Notes under the pieces: model-generated
The model's input: the letters and a program-made list of their open reading frames with translations, nothing else
What the model was told of the DNA's origin: nothing
Databases searched by the model: none
Part shown: piece by piece, positions 41,991-44,021 of the stretch
Position numbering within the stretch: the first letter of the stretch is position 1
Layout of the letters: each line of letters starts with the position of its first letter
Assembly (NCBI GenBank): GCA_001314845.1
Contig: LJZQ01000004.1
Location: 62,001 to 126,000 of the forward strand
Direction of reading: 5' to 3'
Length of the DNA: 64,000 nucleotides
DNA from: Marinobacter excellens HL-55
GTDB lineage: Bacteria > Pseudomonadota > Gammaproteobacteria > Pseudomonadales > Oleiphilaceae
Position numbers and translations under genes: made by a program

Positions 41991-42662
41991 GTGCACAATT
42001 ACTGGCTGGAATTCTTCTCGGTCGCACTGGTCCACCTGCTGGCAGTCGCCAGTCCGGGCCCGGACTTTGCCATCATGCTCAGGCAAGCGCTGACCCAGTC
42101 ACGCCCTAATGCCTTGCTCAGTGCCTGCGGTATCGGTCTGGGTATTTTGCTGCATGTGGGGTATTCCTTGCTGGGCATCGGGCTGATCATTCAGCAATCG
42201 ATTATGCTGTTCACCATACTGAAAGTCGTCGGGGCACTGTATCTGCTCTGGATTGCCTGGCATTGCCTGCGGGCAAAACCGGGCGGCGTTCACATCGAGG
42301 CAAAGGACGTCAAAGTCCAAACCGGCTGGGGAGCGTTTCGGCTGGGGTTTCTGACCAACGCCCTCAACCCTAAAGCCACGCTGTTTTTTGTGTCGCTGTT
42401 TTCAGTGGTGATCAACCCCGGCACACCCATGTTGCTGCAGGCCGGCTATGGCCTTTACATGGCGTTTGCAACCGGGCTCTGGTTTGCCATGGTGGCGGTG
42501 TTCTTCACCCAACCCCGTGTCCGCCGCGGATTTAGCCGATTCGGACACTGGCTGGACAGGCTGATGGGGGGCGTTCTGGTGCTGCTGGCCGGACAACTGC
42601 TGCTGTCTACAGTGACCGGATCAGAGCCTCCGTCTGTTCCCACGCCAGGCACGGATCAGTAA
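41991..42662 (+). CDS. LysE/RhtB family amino acid exporter
   Basis: Inner-membrane exporter of 223 residues with six helices. The family signature ASPGPDFAIMLRQALTQSRPNAL follows the first helix, and LGFLTNALNPKATLFFVSLF is the conserved second-half element. GTG start with GGAGATC upstream. It probably exports an amino acid or small amine. The last 56 bases overlap the convergent DAHP synthase gene, and the neighbour makes an aromatic amino acid precursor, but a functional link is only a guess. Confidence 0.88.
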   Translation: MHNYWLEFFSVALVHLLAVASPGPDFAIMLRQALTQSRPNALLSACGIGLGILLHVGYSLLGIGLIIQQSIMLFTILKVVGALYLLWIAWHCLRAKPGGVHIEAKDVKVQTGWGAFRLGFLTNALNPKATLFFVSLFSVVINPGTPMLLQAGYGLYMAFATGLWFAMVAVFFTQPRVRRGFSRFGHWLDRLMGGVLVLLAGQLLLSTVTGSEPPSVPTPGTDQ

Positions 42663-43659
42663 TAGAGCAACCGTAGATCAGATCGTCACCGTCATCCTGG
42701 CGGCCGAAGGTCAGGAAGCTTTCCAGCATCAGGCCTTTAATGTGCGTGTTGCCCGCGCGCTTCTGGGCCATGACCTCACGGGCAATGCCCAGTTGCCGCT
42801 CCGCTTGCTTGCAGGCGTTGTCGTGACTGCAATCCACCATAACAGCGGTCGACACACCAGCCTTCTGCAGTTCGGCCACGGCCTTGGCAATACTCCCGGC
42901 GTCGTAATTGGTCACGCCACGGCCACCACGCAGCACCAGATGAGTGTCCGGGTTGCCCGCCGTCGTGACCATCACCGGCGCCCCGGCGTGGGAAATACCC
43001 AAGTGGTGATGCGGGTACGAGGCAGACTGCATGGCATGGGTGGCCACCGCTATTCCGCCATCGGTGCCGTTTTTGAACCCGGTCGGCATGGGCAAACCGC
43101 TAACCATTTCCCGATGAATCTGGGATTCGGTGGTGCGCGCGCCGATCGCCGTCCAGCTCACCAGATCCCCCAGGTAGTCCATCATGAAGGGGCTCAGGGC
43201 TTCGGTCGCCAGGGGCAGTCCAAGCTCCGACAACTCTAGCAACAGCTTGCGGGAACGCTCCAGGCCTTGTTTCAGATCGCCCTGGCCGGTGCGTTCGGGA
43301 TCGTACAACAGTCCTTTCCAGCCAACGGTGGTGCGAGGTTTCTCCAGGTAGGCCCGCATGACAATCAGAAACTGGTCACTGACATCGTCCGCCAGCGTTT
43401 TGAGCCTGGCACCGTACTCCAGCGCCGCCTTTTCATCGTGCAGGGAGCAGGGCCCCATCACGATCAGGGTACGCGGGTCCTGGCCGTGGAGCACGCTCCG
43501 GATCTGGTCCCGGTAGCCGGCAATAGCGCGGGTCAACGGCTCACCGGCCGGAAACTGCTGGCGTAATTCGGCCGCTGTCGGCAAGGTTGCTTCCTGGCGG
43601 TGCTGGCAGGCACTCACCGTGTGGGTATCCAGCGTCTCAGATTTCAGAGGCATGTTCAT
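42607..43659 (-). CDS. 3-deoxy-7-phosphoheptulonate (DAHP) synthase, class I
   Basis: Condenses phosphoenolpyruvate with erythrose 4-phosphate, the first step of the shikimate pathway. The 350 residues carry GPCSLHDEKAALEY, MRAYLEKPRTTVGWKGLLYDP, ATEALSPF, GARTTESQIHREM and the metal site in VDCSHDN. Feedback class (Phe-, Tyr- or Trp-sensitive) cannot be assigned safely. The leader is a textbook attenuator: an aromatic-rich 19-residue peptide and a terminator lie upstream (43695-43853), so transcription should fall when aminoacyl-tRNAs for Phe, Tyr and Trp are plentiful. Confidence 0.93.
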   Translation of the reverse strand: MNMPLKSETLDTHTVSACQHRQEATLPTAAELRQQFPAGEPLTRAIAGYRDQIRSVLHGQDPRTLIVMGPCSLHDEKAALEYGARLKTLADDVSDQFLIVMRAYLEKPRTTVGWKGLLYDPERTGQGDLKQGLERSRKLLLELSELGLPLATEALSPFMMDYLGDLVSWTAIGARTTESQIHREMVSGLPMPTGFKNGTDGGIAVATHAMQSASYPHHHLGISHAGAPVMVTTAGNPDTHLVLRGGRGVTNYDAGSIAKAVAELQKAGVSTAVMVDCSHDNACKQAERQLGIAREVMAQKRAGNTHIKGLMLESFLTFGRQDDGDDLIYGCSITDPCLAWEQTEALIRSL

Positions 43660-43694
43660 GTCAGTGTTCCCAATTTCCCTGTGTCAGAATCAAA

Positions 43695-43726
43695 AAAGCC
43701 CCGGCTGGGCTACCAGTCGGGGCTTT
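43695..43726 (-). promoter_or_regulatory. attenuator terminator in DAHP synthase leader
   Basis: On the minus strand AAAGCCCCGACTGG-TAGC-CCAGCCGGGGCTTT (one G-U pair) is followed by TTT, an intrinsic terminator 36 bases before the DAHP synthase ATG and 67 bases after the leader peptide stop. Its descending arm can instead pair with AGCCCGGC at 43756-43763, an antiterminator candidate. A further hairpin GGCAGCC/GGCTGCC spans 43739-43766. Confidence 0.85.
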
Positions 43727-43793
43727 GTGGAGTCCGGTGGCAGCCTGGGTTTCTTGCCGGGCTGCCTTCCTCGTTGTTCAGTCGATGAAGATC

Positions 43794-43853
43794 TTATGGG
43801 CGGCCCGGGCTCTGGATAAAGTAAAAGCCATAACCAAACCACCAAAAATACAC
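43794..43853 (-). CDS. aromatic-rich leader peptide of DAHP synthase attenuator
   Basis: GTG-initiated ORF of 19 codons: MYFWWFGYGFYFIQSPGRP, stop TAA. Residues 2-12 contain nine aromatics (three Tyr, four Phe, two Trp). AGG lies eight bases upstream of the GTG. Stalling at these codons when charged Phe-, Tyr- or Trp-tRNA is scarce would free the antiterminator and allow read-through into DAHP synthase. The peptide itself is unlikely to have another role. Chance occurrence of such a run immediately before a terminator and this gene is very unlikely. Confidence 0.9.
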   Translation of the reverse strand: MYFWWFGYGFYFIQSPGRP

Positions 43854-44021
43854 AGCAGAACCTACGGCCTTCAGTTTTTCACCGAAAGCTTTCAGAACAT
43901 TCAATTGACAGGCTGCGTGTTGTGTCTTCATGCTTTTTACTATAACCCCGTGGTTTTCAGATTGGCAACCCGCAATCCGGATTATTTTGCGGGACCACTT
44001 GACGCGGCTCCGGAGGCCCAG

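Follow-up and report, generated by a model that had tools for sequence, protein, structure and literature searches.

The window is the whole 64,000-nucleotide stretch of DNA analysed, and the nearest named relatives of its genome are Marinobacter. On its minus strand, to which all feature coordinates below refer, a short leader ORF with its promoter, a series of complementary RNA segments, and an intrinsic terminator precede a gene for DAHP synthase (3-deoxy-7-phosphoheptulonate synthase) at 42607–43659, the putative regulated gene. The protein matches TIGR00034 with an E value of 2.5e-124 and has PRK12755 as its best model. DAHP synthase catalyses the first step of the pathway shared by Phe, Tyr, and Trp. 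In the 600 bases upstream of the second DAHP synthase of this genome (L002), no aromatic leader is seen.

The leader ORF (43794–43931) is composed of 45 codons and a TAA stop, running from the ATG at 43931 to the stop at 43794, and encodes MKTQHAACQLNVLKAFGEKLKAVGSAVYFWWFGYGFYFIQSPGRP. Residues 28–38 constitute an aromatic block, YFWWFGYGFYF. Among 94,409 stop-free stretches in the six frames of the window, it is the sole case of an 11-residue stretch with at least nine F, W, or Y residues. A preliminary description of the locus had proposed a 19-codon ORF starting at GTG 43853, with nine aromatic residues among residues 2–12. Codons 43853–43794 indeed translate as VYFWWFGYGFYFIQSPGRP followed by the stop, and the nine aromatics, with Y, F, and W all present, are at the described positions. 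The proposed start is ruled out, as the GTG lies inside a 45-codon frame whose ATG, at 43931 in the window, is kept by all 118 aligned relatives. The interval given at that time, 43695–43853, contained the aromatic end of the leader, but left out the promoter, the start, and 26 codons. The downstream order of a terminator (43692–43726) and then DAHP synthase is as originally described. When two leader peptides were scanned, no known family was above cut-off in Pfam or NCBIfam; the peptide of a relative gave one sub-threshold match, to DUF2752, in Pfam and none in NCBIfam.

Promoter and conservation of the leader in Marinobacter

The leader peptide is found in nearly the entire genus. When the 124 genus genomes were searched with the 45 residues, 122 gave a match at E ≤ 1, including three weak ones (G074, G081, and G086); G087 and G092 gave none. 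From 123 loci, 118 leaders, including that of the window, were aligned together with their own DAHP gene, which supplies the comparison among relatives that had been suggested earlier. Four loci were dropped because the DAHP gene is absent from the stretch examined (L009, L203, L204, and L205), and L202 was dropped because its block is deleted. L204 is the second match in G046, and L203 and L205 are the weak matches in G081 and G086. L203 (G081:C26) comes from a 99% complete genus member and lacks a DAHP gene within 2 kb, possibly a true loss. L202, from the incomplete genome G074, has the same N terminus and is missing the aromatic block and the following segments, reflecting either a natural deletion or an assembly error. 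The set of relatives retained 80 of 563.

All 118 aligned leaders start with ATG, are 43–49 codons long, and end in TAA (65) or TAG (53). In loci with a DAHP match from residue 1 onward, 122–140 bases separate the leader stop from the DAHP start. The aromatic block contains Trp, Phe, and Tyr codons in the aligned relatives. Its first Trp is kept in 118 and its second in 117 of the 118 leaders, and the Tyr preceding the last Phe is present in all of them.

A −35 element, TTGCCA (43963–43968), and a −10 element, TATAGT (43939–43944), precede the leader. In 108 of the 118 relatives, the first base of TTGC(A/C/T)A is at −37 relative to the leader ATG. The −10 element occupies exactly −13 to −8 in 114 of them, as TATATT in 81 and TATAGT in 33. 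With the usual spacing, transcription should start at the leader ATG or within about two bases before it. As the −10 box ends seven bases before the ATG, the leader mRNA is probably leaderless in Marinobacter. Over positions −16 to −4, the mean anti-Shine–Dalgarno energy is −1.0 kcal/mol ahead of the leader and −4.1 kcal/mol ahead of DAHP synthase. When all 20 bases are taken, the values are −6.6 and −5.2, respectively, but the leader value takes in a G run of the promoter, located between the −35 and −10 elements, that would lie outside the transcript. By eye, the outgroup loci L250, L253, L255, L257, and L083 display a similar promoter geometry.

Outside the aromatic block, leader codons 8–16 (43884–43910) retain unusual codons at the nucleotide level. 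Gln 9 is encoded by CAA in 118 of 118 leaders, although the usage of this codon is 0.15, and GTT and TTG are kept in 112 of 112 and 107 of 113 cases, respectively. The attenuator proposed below does not account for this N-terminal codon conservation. An overlapping promoter on the opposite strand was considered and rejected, as a TTGACA is present but, by eye, a −10 box is absent at normal spacing.

Alternative helices and ribosome position

An alignment of 45 sequences, selected from the available loci and including 32 core Marinobacter and 13 others, among them L064 (Marinobacter mangrovi), reveals five conserved RNA segments. They form the alternative helices 1:2, 2:3, 3:4 (the antiterminator), and 4:5 (the terminator). 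As placed by the alignment and the pair counts, segment 1, CCGGGCCGCC (43799–43808), contains the codons for PGRP before the leader stop, and segment 2, GGCAGCCCGG (43757–43766), can pair with segment 1 or 3. The pair counts also place segment 3, GGCUGCCA (43738–43745), for which segment 2 and the terminator are alternative partners. Segment 4, UGGUAGCC (43708–43715), lies within the upper part of the 5′ arm and the loop of the terminator and is the partner of segment 3 in the antiterminator. The intrinsic terminator itself reads AAAGCCCCGACUGG UAGC CCAGCCGGGGCUUUUUU (43692–43726). What had been called a plausible antiterminator can now be specified as 43738–43745 paired with 43708–43715.

Pairing is well kept in these helices. 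Helix 1:2 is paired in 84.4% of cells, compared with 17–48% for slid versions, and helices 2:3, 3:4, and the terminator in 97.8%, 96.5%, and 92.6%, respectively. Cells changed on both sides, a count of sequences and not of evolutionary events, number 5 in helix 2:3 against 0.8 in shuffles, 10 in helix 3:4 against 1.7, and 23 in the terminator against 6.1. Those of helix 3:4 are G-C to A-U in seven rows and C-G to U-A in three rows. Counted as pairs, the double changes in helix 3:4 (2 versus 1.3) and the terminator (5 versus 3.6) are not above shuffles, and the excess of cells may therefore stem from a few inherited events. For helix 1:2, the double-change cells number 4 where shuffles give 1.6, but slid versions reach as many, and the covariation support for this helix is modest. 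The terminator loop is almost invariant in 36 core sequences, a constraint that an antiterminator partner would need and a terminator alone would not.

Directly after the leader stop lies UCUUCAU (43785–43791), the complement of the leader start AUGAAGA (43925–43931). A complement of at least six nucleotides is present in 96 of 118 relatives, with no compensatory change seen by eye. From its complementarity, the element is a possible block to re-initiation.

The effect of a stalled ribosome was scanned in silico by folding transcripts that end just past segment 4, with a 29-base ribosome footprint placed at each codon. Pair probabilities were summed and divided by 7 to give the 3:4 score, which can therefore lie slightly above 1. 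In the genus, 117 of 118 leaders were scored; L166 was skipped because the pattern was not found. With the A site 8–18 codons before the stop, corresponding to the aromatic block, the mean score is 0.57–0.99, and with the ribosome at the stop codon it is 0.19. At codons 1–7 before the stop, the mean is 0.29–0.47, of which codons 4–6 give 0.42–0.47. On the upstream side, it is 0.55 at codon 19 and 0.24–0.34 at codons 20–23. The scan is not clean further upstream, where stalls 24–29 codons before the stop give 0.40–0.51. Without a ribosome, the state is ambiguous, with a mean of 0.46 and a value of 0.24 in the window leader.

The window leader scores 0.01 at the stop and 0.01–0.31 at codons 1–7, 1.08–1.12 at the last five codons of the block, and 0.40–0.76 at the other block codons. 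Codon 19 gives 0.63, codons 20–23 at most 0.05, and the codons beyond 0.14–0.49, save for an isolated 0.98 at codon 26. Making the footprint three bases shorter or longer moves the stall window by about one codon in the 11 sequences folded. Thirteen outgroups follow the same mean pattern, but individual leaders are uneven: the antiterminator window is weak in L254, L257, and L067, and leakage at the stop occurs in L248 and L064. In these models, the position of the ribosome on the control codons would thus decide the fold, unevenly so in the outgroups. In the full-length transcript, the terminator is the most stable fold in every state folded; the decision must therefore be kinetic. Attenuators generally rely on a kinetic decision.

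The scan and the alignment bear on a different explanation, in which free aromatic amino acids, and not uncharged tRNA, would cause the nascent peptide to arrest the ribosome, as with TnaC. The peptide is conserved outside the aromatic run, at CQLNVL, GFYFSQ, and the terminal GRP before the stop, as an arrest peptide might be. The GRP end coincides with RNA segment 1, however, and varies as RNA: the rows with GHP or GHS (L174, L176, and L193) change together with segment 2. An arrest peptide at the terminus is therefore unneeded. In addition, the aromatic run accepts F, Y, S, C, L, and R swaps at several positions, and a stall close to the stop would, by the folding scan, promote the terminator. 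Nascent-chain arrest is thus improbable.

Relation to the Rfam RNA P15 and occurrence in the order

The leader of the window resembles RF00627, the Pseudomonas sRNA P15. In a permissive search of 371 bases, it gives a full-length match of 20.3 bits with an E value of 0.038. Because this score is below the gathering score of 70, the leader is called a P15 homolog and not a member. Of the loci tested, 26 come from records that bear the name Pseudomonas, and RF00627 exceeds its threshold in 25 of them; the exception, L067, is a metagenome bin labelled Pseudomonas sp., and its DAHP synthase shares 62% identity with that of the window. RF00627 is also above threshold in L076 (gamma proteobacterium L18), L289, and L302, and below it in L072, L292, L300, L307, L249, L261, L254, L003, and L126. 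In L073, for example, P15 (1123–1242) coincides with the end of an aromatic leader ORF and a terminator before DAHP synthase. In Pseudomonas, the leader usually ends in FYFGYWFSHWRA before the stop, and that of L073 has a GGAGA site before its ATG.

These P15 loci were left out when a covariance model, R1, was built. All 56 sources scanned with R1 match at E ≤ 0.0044; 17 of these sources were brought in by R1 itself and 39 were not. The stall scan was extended to 51 P15 loci (47 distinct sequences), 50 of which were scored, L076 being skipped as the pattern was not found. In 50 of the 51, helix 1:2 exceeds helix 2:3 with the A site 6–12 codons before the stop, with sharp edges. The codons of this stall window are F-W-Y-G-F/Y-F/Y and one more. 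Helix 3:4 contains 1.8–4.0 pairs in the stall window, 0.3–1.2 at codons 0–5, and 1.3–2.5 upstream; it is weaker than in Marinobacter, and its values overlap those upstream (codons 15–18).

Rfam files P15 under the type "Gene" (sRNA), and PMC2527527 suggests a riboswitch from synteny with a TPP riboswitch. The RNA could accordingly be a small RNA that acts in trans, or a riboswitch for a metabolite, with an incidental leader ORF. The same article places P15 among previously confirmed P. aeruginosa loci, and parts of the element are highly conserved. Nevertheless, this reading is improbable. The Marinobacter ORF is conserved in codons and frame, and all 26 loci measured have the leader stop 42 bases downstream of the P15 start. 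These 26 P15-positive loci were reached through the DAHP gene and provide no independent count of the linkage. In the genus of G241, perhaps Pseudomonas in the narrow sense, 25 genomes were searched with P15 itself; all 25 have P15 above threshold, with DAHP synthase downstream and an aromatic leader end, although they may overlap the records named Pseudomonas. Riboswitch families are below threshold in the window and in 38 loci, where P15 is the sole family listed. A terminated leader of an aromatic attenuator fits P15 better than the riboswitch suggestion. The type "Gene" (sRNA) looks wrong, and "sRNA P15" is best read as such a terminated leader. G519 has a second, sub-threshold P15 match without a DAHP gene.

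In the order, R1 matches 95 of 390 genomes at E ≤ 0.01, many of them weakly and probably by chance. Of 33 R1 loci examined, 28 have a small aromatic ORF before DAHP synthase; 8 of the 28 are from genomes used to build R1, and 20 of the 25 new loci qualify. The R1 matches L298, L301, L303, L308, and L311 have no DAHP gene in the stretch examined. L311 (G190:C3; E value of 7e-4) lies near a gene that, from its ORF, resembles acetolactate synthase, and is possibly an ilv attenuator of similar build.

Many relatives contain a second small ORF between the attenuator and DAHP synthase, which the window does not have. A Pseudomonas example reads MNYATYYRYDxxxAWRFxxLRSGQPAASDRS..., and the ORF of Marinobacter mangrovi ends in GRTGWRFIGGWRY and a stop. 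Among 70 distinct upstream regions, more than half of them from Pseudomonas, 60 have a candidate ORF with W/L/F-Arg-Phe, and 58 have exactly TGGCGATTT with the CGA codon kept; in L068, the candidate is a different ORF. The second ORF is present in L070, most of the Pseudomonas loci L073–L112, L072, L064, L065, L252, L253, L261, and L285, and one with a Trp-Arg-Phe core is also listed in part of L289–L309.

These findings raise a broader, tentative idea, which we regard as somewhat less probable than its negation. Pseudomonas, Marinobacter, and their relatives may share an ancient, order-wide RNA class, identical with P15, that acts as an OR gate for the three aromatic tRNAs and is leaderless in Marinobacter and perhaps others. 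In many relatives outside core Marinobacter, the stacked ORF with its near-invariant WRF core (UGG CGA UUU) may add a second level of aromatic control, perhaps a translational one.

Proposed mechanism and known attenuators

The locus is very probably a ribosome-mediated transcription attenuator of DAHP synthase that uses Trp, Phe, and Tyr codons together. It contains an ORF with codons for the products of the pathway, a terminator between leader and gene, and a mutually exclusive antiterminator with paired changes, which are weaker in helix 1:2. The case for attenuation by an aromatic leader peptide is strong and draws on the conservation of the leader, the terminator, and the alternative helices, on their pairing, and on the stall scans, in which the computed stall window coincides with the aromatic block. 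The codon content of the block suggests that all three aromatic amino acids are sensed. An ordinary constitutive terminator preceded by chance aromatic codons, without regulation, is highly improbable: terminators between genes are common, but this one is conserved over many genera, pairing is kept in the alternative helices, and the stall window matches the aromatic block.

For the attenuator, we infer that the leader is translated, that its translation is coupled to transcription, that transcription starts at or close to its ATG, and that the element responds to each of the three amino acids. RNA polymerase would make a transcript, probably leaderless, from the leader ATG, and a ribosome would follow. 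As long as all three of Trp-, Phe-, and Tyr-tRNA are charged, the ribosome would reach the stop and cover segment 1, allowing segments 2 and 3 to pair and the terminator to form. When any one of the three tRNAs is short, the ribosome would stall in YFWWFGYGFYF and leave segment 1 free. Segment 1 would then pair with segment 2, and the released segment 3 would hold the 5′ arm of the terminator in helix 3:4, such that transcription enters the DAHP synthase gene. In Pseudomonas, the prematurely terminated leader would be the RNA named P15 in Rfam.

This would be a known form of control in a new variation. The enterobacterial trp, pheA, and his leaders share the control codons, alternative helices, and terminator, but the present leader combines all three aromatics and has one more alternative segment than the classical scheme of segments 1–4. 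None of the Rfam families Trp_leader, Phe_leader, and His_leader reaches threshold in the window. The best sub-threshold matches are Phe_leader, with 17.0 bits against 55, and His_leader, with 13.6 against 49 on the other strand; Trp_leader is not listed.

The preliminary description had set the leader apart from those that sense a single amino acid, such as trp or phe. This contrast was overstated. The ilv leaders sense several amino acids, Ile, Val, and Leu; one leader likewise serves several end products of a shared pathway, but these are the branched-chain amino acids. In Corynebacterium glutamicum, AroR is a leader with Phe and Tyr codons (Phe-Tyr-Phe) before a DAHP synthase gene and acts by ribosome stalling (Neshat et al. 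2014, as described in PMC11802643 and PMC4046766). The aroR-aroF attenuator is reported to respond to Phe, with tyrosine being without effect. As there described, it differs in having Phe-Tyr-Phe only and in being actinobacterial. A Tyr-tRNA-sensing attenuator of Shewanella aroF is tabled in PMC2659441, which cites Camakaris 1980 on E. coli; from the description in the table, it is likewise a proposed DAHP synthase attenuator, but for Tyr only. A description of the present leader was not found in full-text literature, the coverage of which leaves out most subscription journals. The main text of PMC8297930 does not mention PA1750 or aroF, and the available part of PMC2965389 does not mention DAHP.

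If the proposal is true, the committed step of aromatic synthesis is controlled by the charging of all three end-product tRNAs. The Rfam RNA P15 gains a concrete, testable function, and the locus points to a leader peptide, conserved in gammaproteobacteria, that is translated from leaderless mRNA. The element may also have a practical bearing on the engineering of aromatic production in Pseudomonas, where it precedes a DAHP synthase.
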